A stretch of DNA of 42,564 nucleotides from Microscillaceae bacterium. Lineage in GTDB: Bacteria > Bacteroidota > Bacteroidia > Cytophagales > Microscillaceae. The notes beneath the pieces are model-generated. The model did not search any database. It saw only the letters and a program-made list of their open reading frames with translations, and was not told where the DNA came from. The position numbers were made by a program, and so were the translations under genes. The stretch is taken from NCBI GenBank assembly GCA_011390205.1, contig JAABSX010000036.1, forward strand, positions 1 through 42,564, read 5' to 3'. Positions 708 through 38,915 of this stretch are shown here, piece by piece (the stretch's first letter is position 1; every line of letters begins with the position of its first letter).

Positions 708-1550
708 TCATTTTGGGTGATAAGCTTTGTATTTTCTCCATTTACAGAGTGTTTTTATTTTTCGGGGTCGGGTGATAAATGCTGTCGGGATAGATACCAT
801 ATCTTGGTACTGTGGTTTTTTGACCACAAAATGCAGGTGAGGCGTAGTGGACCAGCCTGTGTTGCCACTCAGCCCGATGACCTGCCCCGCATTTACTCTA
901 TCTCCTACAGAGACTGCCGCCCCATTTTGCTGCAAGTGATAATAATAAGCGAACGTACCATCTCTGTGATAGATGATGATATAATTGGCTTCTTGGGCGA
1001 AGGCAGCCGTTTTTCCGCCCTTGTCAGAGTCTTTTTTTACTGCAATGACAGTGCCCTCACGAGCTGCACAAACTGCAGAGCCTTCTTTCATTTTGAAATC
1101 AAGGGCGTATTGTCTTCGGTGAGAAAATTTACCATTGTAGGCTTGTAAGAGAAAATAACGACTCTGATGTATATATGGCAATAGATAAGCATAGTCTGTT
1201 TCGGGCTTGACTTCTTCAGGATTTCCAAAATGATGTTGTGTAACATACTGCAGGGTAGATTCTGAAGCGTGTAGTTCTAGCTCAAATAAAAAAATAGAAT
1301 CTTGCTGTGCTGGCAGTATATAAAAATAATTTCTTTGCCTTTCTTTGCTATGAATCACCTCAGGATTTTTGAGTAAAACACTGACTTGATAAGGGCAGTA
1401 ATTGGGATTTTGGGCATAGAAAATAACCTGCTTCCCTCTTTTGATGCTTTTGATGAGTGGCTGCTGGGCTTGTAGGGGGTGGCAAACAGACATCAGCCCC
1501 CAAACGAGCCAAATGAGGGCTATAAAAGGCTTACTTACTAGACGTTTCAT
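708..1550 (-). CDS. Secreted M23-family (LytM/lysostaphin-type) metallopeptidase
   Basis: Probable zinc endopeptidase of the periplasm or outer face, cutting peptide cross-links in peptidoglycan. The start at 1550 is chosen over an in-frame ATG at 1628 because it begins a good signal peptide (basic start, hydrophobic stretch, LQA-Q cleavage site) and leaves only a 20-bp overlap with the upstream MscS gene. This gives 280 aa. The M23 zinc site is visible near the C-terminus: H144 and D151 (HRRQYALDF), H205 (YYYH) and the HLH motif at 238-240. The first 130 residues resemble no domain I recognise. All four ligand positions are present, so it is probably an active enzyme rather than an EnvC/NlpD-type degenerate activator. 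The overlap suggests co-translation with the MscS channel. Confidence 0.85.
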   Translation of the reverse strand: MKRLVSKPFIALIWLVWGLMSVCHPLQAQQPLIKSIKRGKQVIFYAQNPNYCPYQVSVLLKNPEVIHSKERQRNYFYILPAQQDSIFLFELELHASESTLQYVTQHHFGNPEEVKPETDYAYLLPYIHQSRYFLLQAYNGKFSHRRQYALDFKMKEGSAVCAAREGTVIAVKKDSDKGGKTAAFAQEANYIIIYHRDGTFAYYYHLQQNGAAVSVGDRVNAGQVIGLSGNTGWSTTPHLHFVVKKPQYQDMVSIPTAFITRPRKIKTLCKWRKYKAYHPK

Positions 1551-2121
1551 GGCTTTGAGGGATTTCTTCGGCATTGTCAGTGTTGGTTTTATTTTCTTCA
1601 TGGATGCTTTCCTTGATTTCTTGCTCATGGCTTTCTAATATTCGGAGTGTTTTTTGGAGCACGATGGAGTTAGGGATGGTAAAGACTTTGCCGTCTTTGT
1701 CACGGATGTGCAAAAAGAAAAAAGTAATGTCTTCTACAGTTCCTTCTAGGGGGAAATCCTTGTCATAGATAAAAAGTACATCTCCGAAACGCAGAGGGTG
1801 ATAAAAAAATAAAATAAGCCCAGAGGTAATGTTAGAAAGCAAAGACCATTGAGCAAAAAATGCCACCCCCAGAATGGTCAGTGTAGAGGCTACATAAGCC
1901 AATATTTGAGCACCTTTAAGCCCCCAAACACCTGCCAAGACAATGGCCAATGCATTAAAAAAAAGGAAATTTAAGATTTTCATTACCAGTTGTTTGCGGG
2001 GCAAGCTAAATTTTGCCATTAAAAACCGCTTGATTATCTGCTTGAGCAGTATTTGTCTTACAAGGATGAGTATCAGCAAGGCTATGCTGGTCTCTATGAT
2101 TTTTTCGTAGAATAATGCCAT
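1531..2121 (-). CDS. Small MscS-family mechanosensitive ion channel protein
   Basis: A 196-aa inner-membrane protein with an N-terminal membrane helix (about residues 8-25), a second helix around 50-70, and a pore-lining helix rich in Gly and Ala (about 72-100) followed by the MscS beta domain. The signatures PLRFGDV and GTVEDI and the IPNS turn are typical of MscS pore and beta domains. It would open under membrane tension to release solutes during osmotic downshock. At 196 residues it is much shorter than E. coli MscS (286 aa): the C-terminal alpha/beta cage is replaced by a short acidic tail. Its 3' end overlaps the M23 peptidase gene, and a strong hairpin separates it from the thioredoxin gene upstream. 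Confidence 0.85.
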   Translation of the reverse strand: MALFYEKIIETSIALLILILVRQILLKQIIKRFLMAKFSLPRKQLVMKILNFLFFNALAIVLAGVWGLKGAQILAYVASTLTILGVAFFAQWSLLSNITSGLILFFYHPLRFGDVLFIYDKDFPLEGTVEDITFFFLHIRDKDGKVFTIPNSIVLQKTLRILESHEQEIKESIHEENKTNTDNAEEIPQSHETSSK

Positions 2122-2144
2122 AAATAATAGGAATTAATTGAAAA

Positions 2145-2189
2145 ACGTTCTGTATTTATTCAGTAATTTACTGAAAAAACACAGAACGT
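2145..2189 (-). terminator. Nested hairpin terminator after the thioredoxin-like gene
   Basis: The outer stem is ACGTTCTGT (2145-2153) with its complement at 2181-2189. The inner stem is TTCAGTAA with TTACTGAA around a one-base centre. The two are joined by partly paired A/T stretches, giving an almost continuous 22-bp hairpin. On the minus strand the stem is followed by a T-rich stretch (TTTTTC), as in intrinsic terminators. Confidence 0.65.
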
Positions 2190-2291
2190 CTAAATAAGTT
2201 AGGGATAATTTAGCCAAGTAAAGTTTTGATAATCAAGTGATTGAAAAAACACAATTTTAATTCACTTCAAGCACTTACTTAGTTGAACATC

Positions 2292-3437
2292 TTATTTATC
2301 AGCCTTATCACCTTCAGCAAAAAGCTCCGCTACTTTTGCCTCGAGGGCTTCCCCTCTGAGGTCTTTGGCGATGATTCGTCCTTCTTTGTCTAATAAAAAA
2401 TTAGCAGGAATAGAGCGGACATTATACAAAGCAGCAGGGGCAGCTTGCCATCCACCAAGGTCAGATACCTGAGGCCAGTTAAGCTCATCATCAGCGATGG
2501 CTTTGATCCATTTTTCTTTGTTATTGTCTAGAGAGACACCGAATACAGTGAATCCTTTGTCTTTGTATTTTTCAAAAGTACGGACTACATTGGGGTTTTC
2601 TTGGCGGCAAGGCCCACACCAAGATGCCCAGAAGTCAATCAGTACATATTGTCCTCTCAGCGAAGCCAAGCTTACTTTTTCACCTTCAGGGTTTACCTCC
2701 TCGATGTTGGGGGCTTCTGCACCGATGGCAAAGCGTGCCATGCGTGTTATTTTTGCTTGGATGTCTTGGGTAAGTGCCAAGCCTGGGCGTTCTTTTTCTA
2801 CATTTTTCACGACTTGCTGCATGAGTTTCATTTCGGCATCAGACTCCCAGTCAGGGTAGGCAGCATAAGCAGCCACGGAGTTGCTCATTTCATTGAGGAT
2901 GTAGGCTTGCATGACCTCATTGATGGCAGCGGATTCTTTTTCGTAGTCAGCGGTTATTTCCAGAAGTTCGGTTTCGTTGCCTGCTTCTTGGGCGGCTTGG
3001 TATAAATCTACCAATGGGCGGAGCTTTTGCTCTTGAAGCATGGTGCGTTTTTGGTTAAACTGAATCAAGAGGTCGGTATCTTTTGAGCCTGTTACACTTG
3101 CCTGACCGCCATTTTCTCCATCCACATTGAGGGTGATTTTTTGATTGGGCTCTAGCACCAGCATCACAGTTTGTTTGCGATAAAAGCTGAGTAAATAAAT
3201 CTCAGGGCTATTCATAGGCACTGTAAAAGAGAAATTTCCTTCTTTGCTGACTTCTACGGTATCCGTGATGGCGTGGTTTCCTTCATTGAGGTCCCATTTT
3301 ACCAGATAAACCTCTGCATCGGGTTGGGGTGTCTTGATTTTACCTGATACGCTGGTGTTTTGGGCATAAGATTCCATGCTACACATCAGGAGCAAGCAAG
3401 TAAAAGTAAGCCAAAGTGCATTTTGATTTTTTTTCAT
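2292..3437 (-). CDS. TlpA-like thioredoxin-fold protein with N-terminal DUF4369-type domain
   Basis: A 381-aa exported disulfide reductase or oxidoreductase. Residues 1-25 form a signal peptide ending SYA-Q. Residues about 26-120 have the beta-rich pattern of the DUF4369 domain that often precedes thioredoxin domains in Bacteroidota, and a helical linker spans about 130-230. The thioredoxin domain starts near 240 and contains the redox site CGPC (274-277), in the TlpA/ResA-like context WASWCGPC, with a later cis-Pro region (RSIPANFLLD). It probably keeps periplasmic cysteines reduced, for example for cytochrome maturation, but no cytochrome genes are nearby to show a partner. A terminator lies downstream and the divergent helicase gene upstream, so it looks monocistronic. 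Confidence 0.88.
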   Translation of the reverse strand: MKKNQNALWLTFTCLLLMCSMESYAQNTSVSGKIKTPQPDAEVYLVKWDLNEGNHAITDTVEVSKEGNFSFTVPMNSPEIYLLSFYRKQTVMLVLEPNQKITLNVDGENGGQASVTGSKDTDLLIQFNQKRTMLQEQKLRPLVDLYQAAQEAGNETELLEITADYEKESAAINEVMQAYILNEMSNSVAAYAAYPDWESDAEMKLMQQVVKNVEKERPGLALTQDIQAKITRMARFAIGAEAPNIEEVNPEGEKVSLASLRGQYVLIDFWASWCGPCRQENPNVVRTFEKYKDKGFTVFGVSLDNNKEKWIKAIADDELNWPQVSDLGGWQAAPAALYNVRSIPANFLLDKEGRIIAKDLRGEALEAKVAELFAEGDKADK

Positions 3438-3722
3438 GAGCTTTGTTTTTTGTAAATAAAATTTAAGTGTAAATGCCTTATTAACAGTAAATATAAACTT
3501 ATTATTAGATAAGCCACCTCAGAATCAGGCAAAAAATCTATTTTTATATCTTTATTAACACTGGCAAGCAGGCATTCTAGAGATTTTTTTTTGAAAAAAA
3601 AGACAGGCTTTGGCAGGTGAGAAGAAGAGTCGTAGAGATATATTCTAATGTAAGTTATTGATAGTCAGAGCATTAAACGATTTTTAATTTTCAGTTTAAA
3701 ATTCTCTATTTACTTAGACCCA
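3438..3722. other. AT-rich intergenic region between divergent thioredoxin-like and helicase genes
   Basis: Must hold the upstream control region of the minus-strand thioredoxin gene and the upstream part of the helicase promoter region. No open frame, strong dyad or repeat stands out apart from homopolymeric A/T runs near 3586-3600. Confidence 0.5.
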
Positions 3723-3755
3723 TTTGCCAAATATCCTTAAAAAATTGTAAATTTG
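3723..3755 (+). promoter_or_regulatory. Putative Bacteroidota-type promoter of the UvrD/PcrA gene
   Basis: TAAATTTG at 3748-3755 matches the -7 consensus TAnnTTTG exactly. TTTG at 3723-3726 lies 21 bp upstream, in the range of the -33 box. Transcription would start near 3762, inside the longest possible reading frame (ATG 3753), which supports translation from the ATG at 3846. The region is AT-rich, so a chance match is possible. Confidence 0.45.
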
Positions 3756-3845
3756 CCTAAAATAACAACATTTTCAGAAAATAGCCAATTTAAAATAGCT
3801 GAAAACTGTATTTTGAATGCAGCGACACACAGCCAAATCTATACA

Positions 3846-6089
3846 ATGAATTACCTAGAAGGACTCAACCCACCCCAACAAGAAGCTGTACTGCACAGCG
3901 AAGGCCCACTTATGATTATTGCGGGGGCAGGCTCAGGCAAAACCCGTGTGCTTACTCACCGAATTGCTCAGATGATTCAGCAAGGAACAGATGCCTTTCA
4001 GATTTTATCCTTGACCTTCACCAACAAGGCCGCTGGCGAAATGCGTGAAAGGATTGAAAAACTAGTAGGTGTAGAGGCTCGTAATCTGTGGATGGGCACA
4101 TTTCACTCTATATTTGCTCGTATTCTTAGGTTTGAAGCCAATAAACTAGGCTTTACAGCAAACTTTTCTATCTATGATACTGATGATTCTAAATCTTTGC
4201 TCCGCACCATCATCAAAGAGCAAGGCCTAGATGAGAAAGTATATCGTGTCGGAAATGTCTTGGCACGTATCTCTTGGGCAAAAAACAGGCTCATCTCTTG
4301 GGAAGAGTATCAGCAAAATTACCAATATGTAGAAGATGACCGAGCCGCCAACATGCCCGAGATTGCAAGGATTTATAAATTCTATCAGACCCGATGCAAG
4401 CAGGCGAATGCCATGGATTTTGATGATTTACTCTTCAATACCAATATATTATTAGATGCTTTTCCTCAGGTCAGAGAGAAATATCAAAGAAGGTTTAAGT
4501 ATATCATGATTGATGAGTTTCAAGATACCAATCACTCTCAATACAGAATCGTGAAAGCCCTCTCCGAAGCACACCATAATATCTGCGTGGTAGGAGATGA
4601 TGCCCAGAGTATCTATGCATTTAGGGGGGCAGATATTCAGAATATCCTTAACTTTGAGCGTGATTATCCTGAGCTACAGGTCATCCGATTAGAGCAAAAC
4701 TACCGCTCTACCAAAACCATCGTGCAGGCAGCTAACTCACTGATTGCCAAAAACCAGCACCAGCTCAAAAAGGAAGTCTGGACCGACAATGAAGAGGGGC
4801 AAATCATCAAAGTGCAAAGGGCTATCTCAGACAATGAAGAGGGGAGGCTCGTTTCTCAGATTATTTTTGAAGAGAAAATGAACCACGGATTCCTAAACCA
4901 AGATTTTGCGATACTCTACCGCACCAATGCCCAGTCAAGAACGATGGAAGAGGCTCTCAGGAAAATGAACATCAAATACCGAATCATCGGGGGGCTGTCT
5001 TTTTACCAGCGCCGTGAGGTCAAAGATTTAATTGCTTACCTGAGATTTTCTGTCAATCACCAAGACGAAGAGGCATTCAAACGCATCATTAATTTGCCCA
5101 AAAGAGGCATAGGAGGGACTACAGTAGGCAAAATTATCTCCGTAGCCTCTGAGACAGGGGCAAGTATCTGGCAAGTACTCAAAAAAATAAAAGAATTTAT
5201 CAAAGGGCGTACAGCCTCTGCCATAGAAGATTTTGCGCGAATGATGGATAAATTTGCTGACCTTGCCATAGAGCAAGATGCCTACACTGTGGCTGCGTTG
5301 GTAGCCCAAGAATCTGGCCTAATCAGAGAATTGTCTGAAGATAAAACCATTGAGGGACTCTCTCGCTATGACAACGTACAGGAGCTGCTCAATGCCATCA
5401 GGGCACACGTAGATAACCCCCAAAATGAAGATAAATCTCTCTCTGGATTCTTACAGATGGTATCACTGCTCAGTAGCTTAGATGAAAAAGAGGATGATGA
5501 CCCTGACAAGGTTACCCTCATGACCATTCACTCTGCCAAGGGTTTGGAATTTAAGCAAGTATTCATCGTAGGGATGGAAGAAGATTTGTTTCCTTCACAG
5601 ATGAGATTGCAAAGCAGGGCAGATTTAGAAGAAGAAAGAAGGCTTTTTTATGTGGCAGTTACGAGGGCAGAGCAAAAACTTTACCTAAGCTATGCCAACA
5701 CTCGCTACCAATATGGCAGGCTGAAAAACTGTGAACCTAGCCGATTCTTGCACGAAATAGATTCAAAATACATCTACAATGAGCAAGGTAAATTTGGATA
5801 CAAGGCTTCAAGAGCTACAGGCACTTCTTTTGTGCAGAACCTCAAGCCCCGCAGTGCCAGTATTCAGAAAAACCCAAAGGTAACCCACCAAGCTTCCTCG
5901 GGCTTTGAGCCAAGTGATACTAAAAACCTGCAAGCTGGTATGAAAGTAGAGCATATGAAGTTTGGGTTCGGAAAAGTAAAAGAAGTGCAGGAATTTCACA
6001 ATGACCGAAAGGCAGTCATCACTTTTGATGGCTTGGGTGAAAAAACACTCTTGCTTAGTTTTGCAAAGCTGAAGATTTATCAAGATTAA
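3846..6089 (+). CDS. pcrA: UvrD/PcrA-type ATP-dependent DNA helicase (superfamily 1A)
   Basis: A 3'-to-5' DNA helicase for nucleotide excision and mismatch repair and for removing RecA filaments or stalled complexes. The start at 3846 begins with NYLEGLNPPQQEAV, the family's usual Q-motif beginning. A further upstream ATG at 3753 would add 31 unconserved residues and lies at the predicted promoter. The product is 747 aa, a normal length. SF1 motifs are in order: Walker A GAGSGKT (27-33), TFTNKAA (Ia), IDEFQDTN (II), GDDAQSIYAFRGAD (III), QNYRST (IV), TIHSAKGLEF (V) and VAVTRAEQ (VI). The last 50 residues form the PcrA-type C-terminal module (VEHMKFGFGKV), which contacts RNA polymerase in known homologues. 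It is separated from the next gene by 137 bp without a clear terminator. Confidence 0.95.
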   Translation: MNYLEGLNPPQQEAVLHSEGPLMIIAGAGSGKTRVLTHRIAQMIQQGTDAFQILSLTFTNKAAGEMRERIEKLVGVEARNLWMGTFHSIFARILRFEANKLGFTANFSIYDTDDSKSLLRTIIKEQGLDEKVYRVGNVLARISWAKNRLISWEEYQQNYQYVEDDRAANMPEIARIYKFYQTRCKQANAMDFDDLLFNTNILLDAFPQVREKYQRRFKYIMIDEFQDTNHSQYRIVKALSEAHHNICVVGDDAQSIYAFRGADIQNILNFERDYPELQVIRLEQNYRSTKTIVQAANSLIAKNQHQLKKEVWTDNEEGQIIKVQRAISDNEEGRLVSQIIFEEKMNHGFLNQDFAILYRTNAQSRTMEEALRKMNIKYRIIGGLSFYQRREVKDLIAYLRFSVNHQDEEAFKRIINLPKRGIGGTTVGKIISVASETGASIWQVLKKIKEFIKGRTASAIEDFARMMDKFADLAIEQDAYTVAALVAQESGLIRELSEDKTIEGLSRYDNVQELLNAIRAHVDNPQNEDKSLSGFLQMVSLLSSLDEKEDDDPDKVTLMTIHSAKGLEFKQVFIVGMEEDLFPSQMRLQSRADLEEERRLFYVAVTRAEQKLYLSYANTRYQYGRLKNCEPSRFLHEIDSKYIYNEQGKFGYKASRATGTSFVQNLKPRSASIQKNPKVTHQASSGFEPSDTKNLQAGMKVEHMKFGFGKVKEVQEFHNDRKAVITFDGLGEKTLLLSFAKLKIYQD

Positions 6090-6226
6090 ATAACTCAAAA
6101 CCAAAAAAACAGCCCAAATTCCTTTTATCTAAAAATATCCACTAATTTTGCCTAGATACTCCTTGGCACATAGGCAGCATCTTAAAAATAAGTAACAACA
6201 CGTTTTTTGAAAATCAATACATTACA

Positions 6227-6850
6227 ATGTTAAATTTAGACTACAATACCCAACAGCCCGATGTCATCCTGAAAGAATATGGGCGAAATATTCAAAAGCT
6301 AGTAACCTACATCGTCAAAATAGAAGACCGTGAAGAACGCAATAGATTTGCTTACAATCTCATAGAACTAATGCGTCAGATTAACCCCAATACACGTGAT
6401 TCACAAGATACCCAAAATAAACTCTGGGATGATTTATACATCATGTCTAAGTTTAGCTTAGATGTGGATAGCCCCTACCCTATGCCCGAGAAAGAAAGTA
6501 TCGGCAAAAAACCAAAGCCTATGGCATATACCAACCACGAAATCTCTTTTAGGCATTATGGCAGAAATGTGGAGCTGCTTATCGAAAAAATCTTTGAAAC
6601 AGAAGACCCCGAAGAGCATTACGGTGGGCTGGTCAGCATAGGAAGGCTCATGAAAACACTCTACCTTACTTGGAACAAAGACAGCGTACAGGATGAAATC
6701 ATCCTCAAACACTTAGAAAAACTCGCCAAAAGAGACATTGACCCCGAAATGAGAGAAAGACTCATCAAAGAAAATGCACTAGACCTGCCCCGAAAAGACC
6801 GTAAAAATATCCCTGTGCCCAAAGCCAATAAAAAGAAAAAAAAGAGGTAA
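6227..6850 (+). CDS. DUF4290 domain-containing protein
   Basis: A 207-aa cytoplasmic protein of unknown function. It has the pattern of the DUF4290 family found across Bacteroidota: an N-terminal LDYNTQQPDVILKEYGRN segment and a second copy-like segment, ISFRHYGRNVELLIEK, near residues 105-120. The two YGRN-containing halves look like an internal duplication. The C-terminus is a very basic tail (KANKKKKKR) that may bind nucleic acid or acidic partners. The gene lies 103 bp before murA on the same strand; the pairing may reflect co-expression but not a shown function. No membrane segment or signal peptide is present. Confidence 0.8.
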   Translation: MLNLDYNTQQPDVILKEYGRNIQKLVTYIVKIEDREERNRFAYNLIELMRQINPNTRDSQDTQNKLWDDLYIMSKFSLDVDSPYPMPEKESIGKKPKPMAYTNHEISFRHYGRNVELLIEKIFETEDPEEHYGGLVSIGRLMKTLYLTWNKDSVQDEIILKHLEKLAKRDIDPEMRERLIKENALDLPRKDRKNIPVPKANKKKKKR

Positions 6851-6869
6851 ACTACCTCTCGTTGCGTAG

Positions 6870-6904
6870 CCTGTGTGCTTTTTCTAATGTGAAATACACA
6901 CAGG
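6870..6904 (+). other. Weak hairpin in the DUF4290-murA gap
   Basis: An 8-bp inverted repeat, CCTGTGTG (6870-6877) with CACACAGG (6897-6904), spans 19 nt. No U-run follows. It could be an attenuating hairpin in the murA leader or chance. Confidence 0.25.
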
Positions 6905-6953
6905 AGATGCCCACAATTTAGAAAACCTATTCATCTCAAACCAATCTTACCCC

Positions 6954-8258
6954 ATGGCCTCAATAGAAGTAAAAGGAGGAAAATCTTTGCGTGGAGAAAT
7001 CACTCCACAAGGTGCTAAAAATGAAGCATTGCAAATCCTTTGTGCTGTCTTACTGACAGAGCAAGCCGTTACGATACACAACATACCAGACATCGTAGAT
7101 GTAAACAAGCTCATAGACTTGCTGGCTGATATGGGGGTGAAGGTAGAAAAACTCAAAGAAGGAAGCTTCAGATTTCGGGCTAAAGAAATAGACCTAGATT
7201 ACTTAGAAAGCCCTGTATTCAAGCAAAAAGGTGCTGCCCTGCGTGGCTCGGTGATGGTCTTGGGGCCATTGTTGGCACGCTTTGGGCGTAGCCGAATCCC
7301 AAAGCCGGGGGGTGATAAAATAGGACGCAGAAGACTGGATACACACTTTCTGGGCTTTCAAAAATTAGGAGCTAAATTTAATTATGACCACCAAGCAGGC
7401 GTATATGACATAGATGCCTCACAGCTCAAAGGCACTTATATGCTTTTAGATGAGGCCTCCGTAACAGGCACCGCCAATGTACTCATGGCAGCCGTACTGG
7501 CCAAAGGCAAAACCACCATCTACAATGCAGCTTGTGAGCCTTATCTGCAGCAGCTCTGCAAAATGCTCAACAGGATGGGTGCCCATATCACAGGCATCGG
7601 CTCTAACTTACTTTACATCGAGGGGGTAGAAAGCCTGCAAGGCACTGAGCATACACTTCTGCCCGATATGATAGAAGTGGGGAGTTTTATAGGACTGGCA
7701 GCTATGACACAATCTGAAATCACCATCAAAAAAGCAGGCATCGAGCATTTGGGCATCATCCCCTCCGTATTTCAGAGGCTGGGCATTCAGATGGAGTTTA
7801 GGGGAGATGATATTTTTATCCCTGCACAAGATCATTATGAAGTAGAAACTTTCATAGATGGTTCTATTCTGACCATAGCAGATGCCCCTTGGCCTGGGTT
7901 TACGCCTGATTTATTGAGCATTATTCTCGTAACAGCCATTCAGGCAAAGGGGACAGTCCTGATTCATCAGAAAATGTTTGAAAGTAGGTTGTTTTTTGTA
8001 GATAAACTGATAGATATGGGTGCGAAAATTATACTTTGTGACCCGCACCGTGCTACAGTCATAGGCTCAGACAGGCAAGTAGCCTTGAGGGGCATCCGAA
8101 TGACCTCACCTGATATTCGGGCTGGAGTAGCCCTGCTCATCGCTGCACTGTCTGCCAATGGTACAAGCATTATAGACAATATAGAGCAAATAGAGCGAGG
8201 TTATCAATATTTTGACCAACGCCTAAGGGCTTTAGGTGCAGAAATTGTAAGACTCTAG
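6954..8258 (+). CDS. murA: UDP-N-acetylglucosamine 1-carboxyvinyltransferase, Asp-type active site
   Basis: First committed enzyme of peptidoglycan synthesis: transfers enolpyruvate from PEP to UDP-GlcNAc in the cytoplasm. The 434-aa length fits the family. Visible landmarks are KGGKSLRGEITPQGAKNEAL at the N-terminus (K and N equivalent to K22/N23 of E. coli), the loop LGPLLARFGRSRIPKPGGD and the later IRAGVALLIAAL (equivalent to the R397 region). The catalytic cysteine of the mobile loop (E. coli C115) is replaced by Asp: PGGDKIG at 118-124, Asp 121. Enzymes with Asp here are active but are not alkylated by fosfomycin (known for Mycobacterium, Chlamydia and Borrelia), so insensitivity is inferred. 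The sensor gene begins 38 bp downstream and could be co-transcribed. Confidence 0.95.
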   Translation: MASIEVKGGKSLRGEITPQGAKNEALQILCAVLLTEQAVTIHNIPDIVDVNKLIDLLADMGVKVEKLKEGSFRFRAKEIDLDYLESPVFKQKGAALRGSVMVLGPLLARFGRSRIPKPGGDKIGRRRLDTHFLGFQKLGAKFNYDHQAGVYDIDASQLKGTYMLLDEASVTGTANVLMAAVLAKGKTTIYNAACEPYLQQLCKMLNRMGAHITGIGSNLLYIEGVESLQGTEHTLLPDMIEVGSFIGLAAMTQSEITIKKAGIEHLGIIPSVFQRLGIQMEFRGDDIFIPAQDHYEVETFIDGSILTIADAPWPGFTPDLLSIILVTAIQAKGTVLIHQKMFESRLFFVDKLIDMGAKIILCDPHRATVIGSDRQVALRGIRMTSPDIRAGVALLIAALSANGTSIIDNIEQIERGYQYFDQRLRALGAEIVRL

Positions 8259-24914: not shown

Positions 24915-27900
24915 TTAAGGCACATTCCATTCTACCTGAAATAGTTTCTTCATCCAGTTAAGTTTGAAGGTGCTGAGACCCCAAGGAAGCTGTCCTAGCA
25001 GCACATCGATGCCTTTGGGTGCTACTTCGAGCTGCCAATGTTGCTCATATTCACTTAGTTTACCTTCCCTCATTAAAAAGGAAGCACGCAGTGAGTCAGG
25101 GCTTGTATTTTTGAGTACAGACCAGTTTTGAATGACTCCTACGAGCAAGCTATCTGCCATTTCTTTTTCTTCGTCCGAAAGACCTACCTCTTTGGCTAGG
25201 GGCATATTGATAGGTAGCCCACAGAGTATTTTATTGAATGGAAGCTCGTATTCTTCTGATTTTTCGTTTTTGTTAAGGATGTATTGTAGCAGGTGTGTAC
25301 CTCTTTCTGCGGTTTCATTAGATTTGAATTCTCTATTTTCTAAATAACCCAATCTCCCAAAAAGCCTTCCCAAGAAGGGATGCAGCAGTACCAGCCCTGC
25401 ATTTTGGATGTATATTTCATTGAGTGGATGTATGCTTAGAGGCTCTAAGGAGCGTGGAGAGAATGCTTTTTTGATTTTTTCTAATCGGGCTTGTTGCCTG
25501 CGTTTGAGTATTTCTTTGCTGGCGTTTTGTATGATTTCGGGCTGTAGTTTATTGGCTTTTTGTCTATCTTGGTCTTGGATAGCCTCTACCCACCAGTGAA
25601 ATTCTTGTGTAAACTCCTGTGAAAAATAGAGGAGGAGTTCTTCTCCTAGGGCATCATCAAGGGCTGTTTTGGAAGTGATATTTTTTGTATTGAAGAAGTA
25701 GCTCAATAGTTGAATGAGTTGTGCCGTTTTTGTGGGCAGCAGTTTTCGGAGTTTTTGTTTAAAACTTGCATAATGGGGCTTTGCTTTCTTCTCCCAGTTT
25801 TTGAGCAGTGCTTGTATTTCTTTTCCTAAGATTTCCTTTTGCGTGGTTGTAGGAGGTATTTCTAGTGCTGGAAAGAGGCGTTTTATTTTTTGGATGATAT
25901 TTGCCCTGAATTTTTCTGAAAAATAAGGTGTAAAAATCTGAGAAAGGGCTTCGGCTTTTTTCTGAGCAAAAAGGTTTTGAATGATTTCTTCAAATCTTTT
26001 TGGCTCTTGCTCAATCCATTCTGAAAATACTTGCTCTATTGAGAAAGATACTTCACTGATTTGTCTGAGTTGGAGTTCTGTGGGCATTGTCTGACCTTCT
26101 AGTAAAAGTTTTAAGAGGATAAAAGGGCTACTTTGTGGCTGTGAGAGGATGTCTGAAAGTAGTTTAAGCTCTTTTTCTGTTTTCTTCTTGTCTTTTTCCT
26201 GTGCAGTTTGTTCTTCTTTTTCTGTTTTCTTCTTGTCTTTTTCCTGTGCAGTTTGTTCTTCTTTTTCTGTTTTCTTCTTGTCTTTTTCTTGTGTAGTTTG
26301 TTCTTCTTTTTCTGTTTTCTTCTTGTCTTTTTCTTGTGTAGTTTGTTCTTCTTTTTCTGTTTTCTTCTTGTCTTTTTCTTGTGTAGTTTGTTCTTCTTTT
26401 TCTGTTTTCGCCTTGTCTTTTTCCTGTGCAGTTTGTTCTTCTTTTTCTGTTTTCTTCTTGTCTTTTTCCTGTGGGCTGATTACATCAGACAGTTCGTAAG
26501 GTTTTAAAATCGGAATATTTTTCTTGATTTTTAGAATAAAGTCATCACTCAAAAGGTCAGTACTGACACCAAGCAAAGACAACTGAGCCCTGACTTGCCT
26601 CAGATGCTGTACTAAAAATGCTCGGATAGACAGATGTGGCTGCCTCTGTAAGATTGCCAAGACCTCCGAGAATAGTTCTAGGTAGGTGTAAGCTGTTTTT
26701 GGGCTAATATTTTCTTTTTCTAAAAATTGGTAGAGTTCGAGGATATACGTTTGTAAAAATTGTGTGTGTGTAGGTGTGATTTTTTTGAGTTCTTCTAGAG
26801 CTTTGCTTTCGGGCTGTTGGCGTAAATAAGCCTTCCATTCTGCTGCTGAGCGACGCAGGTTGGTTTTTGTTTGTTGTAATGTGCGTATTTCGGGTTGGTA
26901 TTGAGGGAGGAGCATCTCAACTTTTTTCAAGAAGGGTGTCTTTTTATCTTGAGGCATGTTACTGCTCATTTCACGCATCAAATCCAAGAAAATATTTTTT
27001 TGGGAGGGGGATTCAGTTTTTTTTTCCCAGAGCAATGTGAGCAAATACGCCTGAACCTGAGTGCCAAGGTCAGCAGGTAGGTGTGTAGCGATTTGTGTAG
27101 GAAAACCCACAGGCCAAGGAAGCTCGATGATCTGCTGGCAAAGTGTCTCTAGGAGTGCTGTTTGCTTCGGGAACAGTCTTTCTTGATTGAAAACATCGCT
27201 GTATTGAGGCAATACCAAGAGGCTTTTTCTTAAAAAAAACTCTTTTTCTAAGAAGGGCATATCCTCTGTCAGTTTGAGGAGTAGCCTGTGGAGGGTTTTT
27301 TCAGGGTTGTTTTGCAGAGATTTATCTTCCCAAAGCAGTGCCAGCAACGAAGCCTGAATCTGTACACGAGGAGTGTCGGGCATGGAAGCCACAGCAATGC
27401 GAGGGAAACCAGTCTGCCAAGATAATTTTGTGAAATTTTGGATGATTTGAATCCATTGTTTTGCCTGATGAGGAAAAAGTATTTGCCATAGTGTACTGCC
27501 TTTTGAGGGGCCAAGCCAAGGAATCATCTCTGTCCAGTGTCTGGCATTGAGCCATTTTTGGCGGATAATTTCCTTTTCTTGTTTTTGGCTCAATTCATTT
27601 AGAATGACCTCTAGTTTGCTTACAAATTTGGTTTTTGGGCTTGCCCTGTGCAAGTGTATGGGTAGTTTGGTCCAGAAGTATTCTGTTTCTTTTTTTGACA
27701 ATATTTTTTTGAGTATTTCTTGCACAAAGCCAGTACGCAGGCGCTCTTTGCTGTTTTTTCCTTTTTGAAATACCTCTACTAAGCACAAGAAGAGTAGTTT
27801 TTGTTGGATTACTTTATTCCTAAATACCTGCCGTAGTAGTCCAGATAAATCACGGTGTATCTGTATGAGCCATTTTTTGTGTACAATCCGCTGTGTGATG

Positions 27901-28502
27901 AGTGTGTGAAAATCAGCCAGAGGCAGTTGTGTATGGATTCTTTGGCGTATGCTGCTGTGGTCTATGTTTTTTTTGAGCCAAGTTGCACAGGCTTCGGGCT
28001 GTGTCATGGAGAGGTATAGTAGTAGATTTTTGAGGGAGAAACTATCCTCGTACTTGTTTTTAGACCTTTTTTTTTGGCTTTTGTAAGTACTCAGTAGATT
28101 TCCCCAAGCGGTCTGAAACCACCAAGGCAAGAAGCCATTTTTGAGGTAAAACTCAAGTAAATCAAGAGCAGCATGCGCTGTGGGGAGCGGTTCACTCCCT
28201 GAAATTTCATTGAGGCTGATGGTTTCAATGATTTTTTCTTGCAATTCTTTTCTAAGTGCATATTCGTATTTCTCCAGTAGGTGATTCTCCCAATTGATGG
28301 CGGGGATATTACCCAAATCTAGGTTAATTTCGTCTATTTTGACAATGCCCGTGTGGTGATTCCACTCATTGAGTACCTTCTCGGTGAGGGCAGATAGCTT
28401 GTCTTTGAGTAGGGCTTTGATATTTTGAGAGATTTGAAACCCAAGGGTGCTTTGGGTGCAGTTAATCTCTAGGTTTTGTTTTTGAATGGAGTGCCATTTC
28501 AC
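24915..28502 (-). CDS. Contractile injection system tape-measure-family protein (CIS_TMP type)
   Basis: 1195 aa. I recognise both ends of the family. At the N-terminus are IQKQNLEIN, then VKIDEINLDLGNIP (residues 1-90). At the C-terminus (about 1020-1195) are NAGLVLLHPFLGRLFGRLG, LLQYILN, LPFNKILCGLPI, LRASFLMREGKL and LPWGLSTFKLNWMKK. Family members set tube length in phage-tail-like contractile injection systems. The middle is variable: two roughly 85-residue repeats start near 359 and 460 (GFP at 365 and 466), and a charged 15-residue repeat runs from about 677 to 779. The start is GTG at 28502; an in-frame stop lies three codons upstream. No sheath, tube, baseplate or AAA+ ATPase gene is adjacent, so it stands apart from any injection cluster in this window. 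Confidence 0.82.
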   Translation of the reverse strand: MKWHSIQKQNLEINCTQSTLGFQISQNIKALLKDKLSALTEKVLNEWNHHTGIVKIDEINLDLGNIPAINWENHLLEKYEYALRKELQEKIIETISLNEISGSEPLPTAHAALDLLEFYLKNGFLPWWFQTAWGNLLSTYKSQKKRSKNKYEDSFSLKNLLLYLSMTQPEACATWLKKNIDHSSIRQRIHTQLPLADFHTLITQRIVHKKWLIQIHRDLSGLLRQVFRNKVIQQKLLFLCLVEVFQKGKNSKERLRTGFVQEILKKILSKKETEYFWTKLPIHLHRASPKTKFVSKLEVILNELSQKQEKEIIRQKWLNARHWTEMIPWLGPSKGSTLWQILFPHQAKQWIQIIQNFTKLSWQTGFPRIAVASMPDTPRVQIQASLLALLWEDKSLQNNPEKTLHRLLLKLTEDMPFLEKEFFLRKSLLVLPQYSDVFNQERLFPKQTALLETLCQQIIELPWPVGFPTQIATHLPADLGTQVQAYLLTLLWEKKTESPSQKNIFLDLMREMSSNMPQDKKTPFLKKVEMLLPQYQPEIRTLQQTKTNLRRSAAEWKAYLRQQPESKALEELKKITPTHTQFLQTYILELYQFLEKENISPKTAYTYLELFSEVLAILQRQPHLSIRAFLVQHLRQVRAQLSLLGVSTDLLSDDFILKIKKNIPILKPYELSDVISPQEKDKKKTEKEEQTAQEKDKAKTEKEEQTTQEKDKKKTEKEEQTTQEKDKKKTEKEEQTTQEKDKKKTEKEEQTAQEKDKKKTEKEEQTAQEKDKKKTEKELKLLSDILSQPQSSPFILLKLLLEGQTMPTELQLRQISEVSFSIEQVFSEWIEQEPKRFEEIIQNLFAQKKAEALSQIFTPYFSEKFRANIIQKIKRLFPALEIPPTTTQKEILGKEIQALLKNWEKKAKPHYASFKQKLRKLLPTKTAQLIQLLSYFFNTKNITSKTALDDALGEELLLYFSQEFTQEFHWWVEAIQDQDRQKANKLQPEIIQNASKEILKRRQQARLEKIKKAFSPRSLEPLSIHPLNEIYIQNAGLVLLHPFLGRLFGRLGYLENREFKSNETAERGTHLLQYILNKNEKSEEYELPFNKILCGLPINMPLAKEVGLSDEEKEMADSLLVGVIQNWSVLKNTSPDSLRASFLMREGKLSEYEQHWQLEVAPKGIDVLLGQLPWGLSTFKLNWMKKLFQVEWNVP
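26166..26474 (-). repeat. 45-bp tandem repeat, about seven copies, inside the tape-measure gene
   Basis: Units begin at 26211, 26256, 26301, 26346, 26391 and 26436, with a partial copy before and the last one truncated. Each encodes a 15-residue charged unit (EKDKKKTEKEEQTAQ). Copies differ by only a few bases (such as cctgtgca against cttgtgta, and one cgcc variant). The unit length keeps the reading frame. This is a minisatellite able to change copy number by slippage. Confidence 0.95.
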
Positions 28503-35813: not shown

Positions 35814-38636
35814 CTAGGCATCAGGAGAGTCTGGTGTATCTCTCACGCGAGTAACATCTTTGTTTTGTTCAGGAGCGGCTTCCACCACTCGCACTACTGC
35901 GGGCTTATAAATTAGGGAGCGAATTAGCCGCTCAAGGGGAGAGAGTGAAAGTGCCAGCATGATGTTCATCCCTAGTTTTAAGACAGGAATACCATTGGCA
36001 ATGTCATCTACATAAGGCTCAAACAATAAAAATAAAAACTCAAAAACGGTAATGATAGAAATAAGGCTTAGCACAAATGAAAGGCGGGAGCGTTTGCCAG
36101 AGCGGTTAAAGAGAAAAGACAAAAGCAATAAGCTCAATAAAACACCTATCTGCAAGCCATAAAACCAGTAAGTCTCCCAAAAAGGAGGTGCTACCTCGAA
36201 TGAAAATATTTTTTCTTGGCTTTGCTGTTTAAAAATATTACGTGCCTTCACATGGAGTTTATATGTTCCACTTGGCAAAAACGGAAATACAATCACTGAT
36301 TTGCCATCCCACTCAGACCAACCTGGGCTCAAACCTTCTAGCCAATACTGATACTCTATACCGCCCTCGCCTTGATAAAAGGGCGTAGCCAGTTTGAAAG
36401 TCAGAGAAAGTGCCTGCCTGCTATACTCAAATACAGCCCTATCTAGAGGAAGAAATTTATTGGAGTTGCTGTAGATATTCCGAATATAGGTGCTAAAGTT
36501 GATATTTTTGCCCACATTTGCCTCCGAAGAGATTCGGTACAGATTGTTGTTGTCTACCAGCCAAATATTCTTGTTGGTATCTACATAGACCTCTGTCAGG
36601 TCGTTAAAAAAGTCTAAGAATATGCTCTTCAGGTTTTTACTTTCAGTGGGTTGGCTGATATTCTGCCAATCTTTGTTTTTAATCCAGGTATAGCCTTTTT
36701 GCTGGTAAAATATTTTTGATTGGGGGTTAAAATACCTTGCCAAGCGTGGGTTTTTAATCATCTTGTCAGCTTGAGGGCTATAGGTATAAATACCTGAAGA
36801 AAGTATAAAGGCAGGCTGATTTTTGAGCTTTCTTACGATGACATCCTCCGAAAAACTTTCAGGAAACTCATACAGCTTTGGGAGGTTTTGGGGTAAAAAA
36901 TTTTGGTCAAGGCTGATTTTAAACACACGACTTTCTGCCCCCAGCCACAGGGTCTGCCCATCTTCCATGACAGAATAGACCGATGTCTTAAGTGTTTCTT
37001 TTAATTGCGTATGTGTATTCCACTTGCCTTCGGCATAGTGCAGAATCACCAAGCCATCATCAGTAGCTACATAAAGATAATCAGGGTTTCTCTCTGATAT
37101 AGACAAGAAATGCACGTACACATCGGGCAAAATCGCAACTGCACTTACAGCACCCTCTTGGTTAGAGATTTTATAAAGACCAAAATTACTGGCTACCAAG
37201 ATATTTCCTTTGTGCTGAATCATCTGCCGGCATTTGGCATCTAAACCTTCTACTTTTTTATAGATATAAGGGATAGACTGTAGGGCATAAGCCTCACGGG
37301 CTTCTTTGGTGCTGAATAGTGAGGTAATGGTTTCTGTGCTGTATGCCTTGACAGGTATTCTCTTGGTTTCGCTGTCTTCTTCTGTTTCTATTTTTCTTTC
37401 TTCGGGTTTAAATCCATTTTGAGGAAGTTGGTATTTACGAAACCTACTTCCAGATAGAGGCTCTGTAATTTTGATGGTGCGTGTGATGGTTTCTACATTC
37501 TGGACATACTTCTGTTCTTTTCGGATAAACCCCTCTATCTCTTCATATCGATTTACTTTATAAAGGTAAAAAAGCCCGTCACTGGTAGCCACAAAAAGAG
37601 AATCATTGGCTGTGAGGAGGCTTTCTATGTTGCCCACCAAGCCCGCATAGCCTGAGAAAGTACGCACAGGCAAGCTGATGTCTGCCCTGCTGATGCCTTG
37701 TGCATGGCATATCCAGATACCTCCTTGCCTGTCATTGCAGAGTGCAAATACTTCATCATCCAGCAGCCCCGTTTGATAGTTGAGGAGATACTCCGTCTGT
37801 CTTGTTTTTTTGTGAATGATGATGACTCCCCCTGAGAGTGTGCCTAGAGCCATTCGGTCATTGCCCAGTGCAAGCCCTGTCTGTATTGCATTTCCTTTGA
37901 TGTATTCTAAGGCTTCCGAAACATAAATCTGTATTTTTTGCCCGTCAAATACATACATATGCTGATTACTAAGCCCTAGCAGTACGCTGTGATTATCAAG
38001 GGGGATGGCAGCCTTGATATATAGGTTGGCATACATGGCTGTATTAGGGATGGCATTCATGCCTTTTTCTGTGAGTTGGTAGAGCCCCTTGCCTCGTATG
38101 TTGAGGTATATTTTTTCACCTATCTGGGTCATTCCTAAGAAGACACGGTCGGGCTGCACTTTCCAGGATTGTGTGATTTTGTGTGTTTTTTGAGATACCT
38201 GAAAGACTTCTTTCTCACTATAAAAATAGATAAATGCTTTGCTCATCAAAATACGGTTAATTTCTCCAAAATCTGCTTTTTGTTTGAGCAGGCTTACATA
38301 CTGGTCTTTGCCTGTTTTGAGTGTTTGGAGGTATCCAAAATCATTGCGGCAGCCTACATAAACAGACCCCGAGGGGTTTTTATCAGTAAGTAGGGCATAA
38401 GGAGTGCTGTTGGTGCGGATGATGTCCCAAGCTGCCCCATCATAAGAAAGCACGCCCTTTTTATTGGCAAAATACATCAGTCCGTTATTTCCTTGTGTGG
38501 CTGCTAGGTTGCGGGGTTCTATATTTTTGAGAGGGATTTCATAATTTTTCAGGAATAAATCACCGCTTTGTGCAGAGAGTTGAAGTAGTGATGCATAGCC
38601 AATGATTAAGAGAACTAGAAAATATTTTTTCGTCAT
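35814..38636 (-). CDS. Two-component-type beta-propeller sensor with Y_Y_Y domain, no output domain
   Basis: 940 aa from the ATG at 38636, which begins the signal peptide (TKKYFLVLLIIGYASLLQLSAQ). An upstream ATG at 38690 is less likely. About residues 30-730 form repeated blades of the type seen in Bacteroidota hybrid sensors (NNGLMYFANKKGVLSYDG, GGIWICHAQGISR, LYVATDDGLVILH, NKNIWLVDNNNLYRI). The Y_Y_Y domain follows near 740-830 (EYQYWLEGLSPGWSEW, LPSGTYKLHVKARN). Then come about three membrane helices (FYGLQIGVLLSLLLLSFLF, LISIITVFEFLFLLF and GMNIMLALSLSPLERLI). No kinase, LytTR or helix-turn-helix domain follows; the protein ends in a charged tail. It may signal through its membrane part to a partner, or detect a periplasmic carbohydrate or envelope state (inference). 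Confidence 0.75.
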   Translation of the reverse strand: MTKKYFLVLLIIGYASLLQLSAQSGDLFLKNYEIPLKNIEPRNLAATQGNNGLMYFANKKGVLSYDGAAWDIIRTNSTPYALLTDKNPSGSVYVGCRNDFGYLQTLKTGKDQYVSLLKQKADFGEINRILMSKAFIYFYSEKEVFQVSQKTHKITQSWKVQPDRVFLGMTQIGEKIYLNIRGKGLYQLTEKGMNAIPNTAMYANLYIKAAIPLDNHSVLLGLSNQHMYVFDGQKIQIYVSEALEYIKGNAIQTGLALGNDRMALGTLSGGVIIIHKKTRQTEYLLNYQTGLLDDEVFALCNDRQGGIWICHAQGISRADISLPVRTFSGYAGLVGNIESLLTANDSLFVATSDGLFYLYKVNRYEEIEGFIRKEQKYVQNVETITRTIKITEPLSGSRFRKYQLPQNGFKPEERKIETEEDSETKRIPVKAYSTETITSLFSTKEAREAYALQSIPYIYKKVEGLDAKCRQMIQHKGNILVASNFGLYKISNQEGAVSAVAILPDVYVHFLSISERNPDYLYVATDDGLVILHYAEGKWNTHTQLKETLKTSVYSVMEDGQTLWLGAESRVFKISLDQNFLPQNLPKLYEFPESFSEDVIVRKLKNQPAFILSSGIYTYSPQADKMIKNPRLARYFNPQSKIFYQQKGYTWIKNKDWQNISQPTESKNLKSIFLDFFNDLTEVYVDTNKNIWLVDNNNLYRISSEANVGKNINFSTYIRNIYSNSNKFLPLDRAVFEYSRQALSLTFKLATPFYQGEGGIEYQYWLEGLSPGWSEWDGKSVIVFPFLPSGTYKLHVKARNIFKQQSQEKIFSFEVAPPFWETYWFYGLQIGVLLSLLLLSFLFNRSGKRSRLSFVLSLISIITVFEFLFLLFEPYVDDIANGIPVLKLGMNIMLALSLSPLERLIRSLIYKPAVVRVVEAAPEQNKDVTRVRDTPDSPDA

Positions 38637-38915
38637 TTTTTGAAGATATTTTTCTGAAAAATTAACAAAATCAATGCCTAAGCCCTCCAAAATTACACAA
38701 TTAATACTACAAGCCGAAAAGAAGATTTATTTACTTGCTCACCCTTATCTAAATTCTTGATGTATGCCATTTTTGATGTGTTATAGCAATACAATGGATT
38801 GGCATATGCTTTACTGAAAACCAAATAAAATATTGAAAAATACCATGTCTATAATGCTCCCCAAAATTAGCACCACAGTATAAGATGCAAAATTGTTATT
38901 AAATAGAGTTATTAC
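38637..38915. other. Intergenic region upstream of the propeller-sensor gene
   Basis: 279 bp of AT-rich sequence before the degraded IS. The only structure seen is TATGCCA (38763-38769) with TGGCATA (38800-38806), a 7-bp dyad 30 nt apart. It presumably contains the sensor promoter on the minus strand. Confidence 0.4.

Follow-up and report, generated by a model that had tools for sequence, protein, structure and literature searches.

A frame-preserving 45-bp minisatellite in a long-form CIS_TMP gene of a Microscillaceae bacterium

The CIS_TMP gene and its array

The window, that is the whole stretch of 42,564 nt analysed here, carries on its minus strand a gene of the family CIS_TMP (PF19268, contractile injection system tape measure protein) coding for a protein of 1195 aa. 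The protein scores 330.6 bits against PF19268, for which the cut-off is 27.8, and the profile matches it in two parts, one nearer the N-terminus and one nearer the C-terminus, with a tandem array between them. With a score above the Pfam cut-off and both ends of the profile matched, the protein is, judged by its sequence, a member of CIS_TMP, and the name 'tape-measure gene' used in the original prediction holds as a family label. The features of the gene are as follows.

24915..28502, minus strand: CIS_TMP (PF19268) gene, long form, 1195 aa, GTG start (Pfam E 2.8e-98)
27753..28502, minus strand: N-terminal conserved region, about aa 1–250 (PF19268 profile positions 2–282 match 27570–28493)
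26472..27752, minus strand: variable, predicted helical middle upstream of the array (model, pLDDT mostly about 40–60)
26170..26473, minus strand: in-frame minisatellite, 45 bp x 6.8, unit QEKDKKKTEKEEQT(T/A) (TRF and in-frame reading)
25422..26156, minus strand: putative helical segment between the array and the C-terminal domain (model, low confidence)
24927..25421, minus strand: C-terminal conserved folded domain, about aa 1028–1192 (NAG..LHP in the alignment; invariant alignment columns)

The neighbourhood of the gene is ordinary and includes genes of fatty-acid synthesis: yceD, plsX, fabH, accB and accC lie on one side, and on the other an ECF sigma factor, FtsX and gcvP, together with a possible TPR protein that scores under the Pfam cut-off. 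In contrast to the Afp14-type arrangement, in which baseplate and AAA ATPase genes belong to the same locus, the gene stands alone. The contractile system of the source genome lies away from it, on contig C124 (locus L028, 45000–64999), with matches to a sheath, two gp19-type tubes, Pvc16_N, CIS_tube/LysM, gp25, hub/spike and Baseplate_J proteins. By these matches, a contractile injection system (CIS) with its sheath, tube and baseplate is encoded in the source genome. Elsewhere in the window, 35814–38690 (minus strand) codes for a protein of 958 aa that has two-component regulator propeller domains and Y_Y_Y domains.

TRF reports a single tandem array in the window, at 26170–26473, with a period of 45 bp, 96% matches, no indels and a score of 552. 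It has 6.8 copies, a count that may be wrong for a 304-bp array with identical adjacent units in a draft assembly of 124 contigs. The original prediction had described about seven near-identical copies at 26166–26474 that leave the reading frame intact, and both points are borne out: the existence of the array is beyond doubt, and it lies in frame within the minus-strand gene at 24915–28502. It corresponds to residues 678–782 of the product, with six full units (QEKDKKKTEKEEQTT) and a seventh that keeps to the pattern for 11 residues only. Units 1–6 vary at three codons only (CAG/CAA, AAG/GCG and GCA/ACA); unit 2 carries the change K6 to A, and the DNA of units 3 and 4 is the same. The residues V, I, L, M, F, W, Y and C, which make up 31% of the middle of the protein, are absent from the array; 66% of the residues of the array are charged, with a net charge of +1. 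The near-identity of the units had also been read as a sign of recent expansion; it points to recent expansion or to homogenisation.

Intragenic VNTRs (coding minisatellites) are known from bacteria. The array, composed of near-identical in-frame tandem units, is one of them; the likeness extends to whole-unit steps between relatives, seen here between species. On/off phase variation by frameshift is ruled out, as a 45-bp unit is unable to shift the frame. Only two arrays with a TRF score of at least 100, of which that of the window is the stronger, were found in 462,564 bases of the source genome (the window, the sheath locus and 400 kb from two other contigs), so such arrays are no habit of this genome. 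In the 4.51-Mb assembly, the sole strong match to the array is the array itself, and four others cover 27–70 bases at 76–93% identity. A search of viral contigs for an exact 38-base pattern of the array gave no match.

Lengths, loci and arrays of CIS_TMP in relatives

CIS_TMP is present in nine of 15 genomes from the window's family, a set that includes the source genome but no other of its genus, and in 103 of 390 genomes drawn from the order. The set of relatives comprises 144 distinct stop-to-stop frames with the C-terminal domain. The complete frames that reach 400 aa, 134 in number, range from 420 to 2173 aa; 56 are short forms of less than 700 aa (median 526), one is a protein of 740 aa and 77 are long forms of at least 770 aa (median 1282). 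The window gene is thus about twice as long as the median short form. Two further matches (G354:C1:480953-482074 and G231:C22:24906-25418) contain stops and are either decaying copies or matches that overrun a stop. In one metagenome-assembled genome, CIS_TMP extends across two overlapping frames (L032, 4586–7605), which may be due to sequencing error or decay.

Both forms are found in loci that, by their gene content, are CIS loci. Of the 48 short-form loci, 35 have a Baseplate_J-type marker and 34 an AAA marker; of the 35 long-form loci, the numbers are 22 and 21. The sheath marker was detected in three of the 35 long-form loci and in none of the 48 short-form loci, and nine of the 35 long-form loci have none of the 14 markers; such absences mean little, because each marker is a single divergent protein. 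Genes annotated as CIS tape measures on plasmids of Serratia and Chromobacterium match a short CIS_TMP member.

The extracellular CIS tape measures Afp14 and Cis14 share the Pfam family name PF19268 with the window protein, and Afp14 is presumably a member of that family. The ruler role of the family reportedly goes back to work of 2015 on Afp14 and the length of Afp. Baseplate_J-type and AAA genes are present in loci of relatives, a further point in common. In contrast to the Afp14/Cis14 type, the window gene is about twice the length of the median short form, lies away from its cluster and carries an array. Two species of one genus (G006 and G007) each have a short CIS_TMP (L029 and L030) and a long one (L031 and L033), and so probably two injection systems; their long CIS_TMP lies about 2.2 kb from a sheath gene, unlike the stand-alone gene of the window.

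Of 82 long CIS_TMP frames, 11 have an array with a score of at least 200, against none of 57 short ones, six of 205 other long frames and six of 167 other frames of 450–770 aa. With a score of at least 80, the corresponding numbers are 14, one, 14 and ten. Long frames are those of at least 770 aa, including those cut by contig ends, and five of the 144 frames, shorter than 400 aa, fall outside the classes. Long CIS_TMP frames differ from other long frames at both thresholds (Fisher p 0.0015 at score 200 and 0.014 at score 80, treating frames as unrelated), with a smaller excess at score 80. A contig end cuts two of the 14 array-bearing frames, and the arrays of G006 and G007 probably have one origin. 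As the stretches from the remaining genomes are short, the control frames come mostly from the flanks of 80 loci, and hence mostly from genomes other than those of the array carriers.

The best arrays of the 14 frames have periods of 15–330 bp, multiples of three in all but one case (49 bp, score 114), and all lie at least 226 aa away from the C-terminus. Two sorts predominate: units of low complexity, many of which are polar, and helical modules that have been duplicated, for example of 110 aa in L124 and 68 aa in L036. The former is the 2173-aa protein (frame 783–7301), with its 330-bp module in 2.3 tandem copies (88% matches). A 1580-aa CIS_TMP from a 1.2-Mb genome (L160, frame 779–5518) carries a 63-bp array of 7.7 copies (96% matches). 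A count of degenerate PWW-type modules correlates with protein length (Spearman 0.64, n = 134), but we dropped it as evidence, because longer proteins offer more chances of a match.

Length change between related proteins

The original prediction had proposed that the copy number of the array changes, and the comparison of relatives supports such change between species. The long proteins of G006 (1316 aa) and G007 (1331 aa) are 93% identical and their sole internal gap is 15 aa: both have a 45-bp array with a QTIDDKEKRESTDSD-like unit, in six and seven copies, respectively, located in the middle of the protein ahead of the C-terminal domain. This array has the same period as that of the window and a similar place. 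The similarity between the two units is, however, no better than that of shuffled sequences (p 0.20 for protein and 0.26 for DNA), so a common origin was rejected; with no detectable kinship between the units, independent origins are allowed.

Larger steps are also observed. In another genus, the longer of two proteins (G012/G010) has at the main gap a tandem module of 68 aa in 1.9 copies (77% matches), and a Chitinophaga protein (L099) has, relative to another that is 70% identical (L062), a 135-aa insertion with a 48-bp array of 16-aa repeats. L099, a frame of 1440 aa, comes from C. hostae 2R12; its insertions of at least 5 aa relative to the 1247-aa frame of C. eiseniae Ak56 (L063) add up to 171 aa. 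Length is almost constant in some lineages: it is 1247–1248 aa in L042, L044, L047 and L051 at 62–94% identity, and again in L062, L063 and L071 at 90–93% identity. Such constancy would fit a ruler or another constraint on length.

The indels are almost confined to the middle of the protein. In 35 pairs of long proteins, which like the arrays are not phylogenetically independent, those of at least 5 aa number 115 in the middle, one in the first 240 aa and three in the last 165 aa. Compensating indels that would hold the total length constant were considered as a mark of ruler selection and rejected, as the gap signs carry no signal (mean mid-p 0.55 for 12 long pairs and 0.59 for six short pairs); with 12 long pairs, this test is weak. 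Of 26 disjoint pairs, the 18 with at least three gaps were tested and eight were dropped.

Predicted structure, tube length and the role of the array

The model of a short form (L076, 41 sequences; mean pLDDT 73.8) consists of an N-terminal region, a middle made up of helices and a C-terminal domain predicted with confidence. The model of the window protein (28 sequences) has a mean pLDDT of 59.9. In blocks of 10 residues, pLDDT is mostly 64–89 in its N-terminal region, with lower values at aa 91–110 and 141–150, and mostly 84–94 in the C-terminal domain from aa 1031, with dips at aa 1161–1180. It falls below 50 across aa 657–782, array included. Much of the array is drawn as helix at this low confidence, and it may therefore be a rigid single helix instead of a floppy spacer. 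At low to middling confidence, the models suggest a helical middle and a folded C-terminal domain, which may set the protein apart from the rod or coiled coil along the lumen expected of a phage ruler.

The short-form model gave no Foldseek match at E 0.001 in the PDB or among viral models, and a search by sequence for solved relatives gave none that was credible. Its residues 135–225 resemble helical-repeat proteins with VIA-align Z up to 6.2, a weak similarity in a common arrangement. Among the PHROGs families described as tape measures, none matched the window protein at E up to 1, which weighs little because phage tape measures diverge strongly.

We consider, with slightly better than an even chance of being right, that the array is an in-frame minisatellite that yields a tolerated, adjustable spacer within the middle, variable part of a long-form CIS_TMP. 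Slippage, the presumed cause, or unequal recombination would add or remove whole units of 15 residues, the reading frame being kept because the unit length is a multiple of three. The product would be a polar, charge-balanced and probably unstructured or single-helix spacer that leads from the predicted helical middle to the C-terminal part. Since the middle of the protein tolerates length change, unrelated arrays would arise and fade there across lineages. The in-frame array, its units free of hydrophobic residues, the low pLDDT, the one-unit step between species, the repeat-bearing insertion in Chitinophaga, the excess of arrays in long CIS_TMP, the lack of detectable kinship between the units of two lineages, the near-confinement of indels to the middle and the lack of compensation among them all support this reading; the lineages of almost fixed length speak against it. 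Gaining or losing one unit, or a few, would probably have little or no effect on tube length.

The principal alternative, raised in the original prediction, is that the long CIS_TMP acts along the tube as a phage-like ruler and that the array serves as a copy-number dial. The quantitative precedent is phage TP901-1. There (PMC5099701), the tail shortens as residues are deleted from the tape measure, by 0.145 nm per residue, about 127 residues do not count toward tail length, and the authors propose that repeats ease the gain or loss of tape length. Repeats in phage tape measures are thus already published; in the literature searched, we found no account of minisatellites in a bacterial CIS tape measure. 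The likeness lies in the presence of repeats within a tape measure protein; the TP901-1 units of 11 or 18 aa are marked by aromatics (PMC5099701), whereas those of the window are near-identical, 15 aa long and devoid of hydrophobic residues.

By the TP901-1 rule, one unit of 15 aa would correspond to about 2.2 nm and the whole array to about 15 nm. The AlgoCIS tube is 90.2 nm long over 22 layers, or 4.1 nm per ring, equivalent to about 28 residues; one unit would therefore span only about 0.53 of a ring, about half. As a proxy for the CIS_TMP of AlgoCIS itself we took a short form from its bacterial family, Cyclobacteriaceae (L080, 518 aa), for which the TP901-1 rule predicts 57 nm and an all-helix conformation 78 nm, both below 90.2 nm. 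The reported share of filled AlgoCIS tubes is about 96% in the wild type against about 38% and 37% in the two single cargo mutants, so that much of the density in the lumen is due to cargo.

We judge the ruler with its dial of about 2.2 nm per unit to be unlikely, although it retains real weight. The name of the family and the Afp14 precedent speak for it, and so do papers in which control of length is ascribed to the CIS tape measure. The behaviour of TP901-1, the CIS_TMP lengths of 420–2173 aa and the lineages of fixed length agree with it as well. Against it stand the predicted folded C-terminal domain and helical-repeat-like middle in place of a rod, the shortfall of the proxy relative to the AlgoCIS tube, a unit that is not a whole ring, the strong decrease in filled lumens on cargo loss and the absence of compensation among indels. 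By this arithmetic, any effect of the window array on tube length would be small. The broader proposal, that long-form tapes of Bacteroidota evolve length through independent in-frame minisatellites and module duplications and that these act as a tube-length dial, seems to us improbable.

If the number of units does set tube length, pairs of species that naturally differ by a known number of repeats would put the ruler model for bacterial injection systems to the test without engineering, and such arrays would offer a simple genetic route for evolving reach. If it does not, these pairs would reveal CIS_TMP to be no simple ruler, correcting a common annotation.

It is quite improbable, in our estimation, that the array is neutral low-complexity drift, without a role and persisting since it breaks nothing. 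The lack of detectable kinship between the units of the two lineages compared would agree with drift, as would the fact that most long relatives have no array (a score of at least 80 is reached in 14 of 82 long CIS_TMP frames); it is opposed by the excess of arrays over other long frames and by a frame and charge balance maintained over seven units. A true copy number other than 6.8, hidden by faulty assembly, is conceivable in a 124-contig draft with units 3 and 4 identical but very improbable, as the variants of the unit follow an order along the array, whose flanks are unique gene sequence. On the opposite strand, a Ser/Phe/Cys-rich open frame of 116 aa (26149–26499, plus strand) mirrors the repeat and was not taken as a gene.
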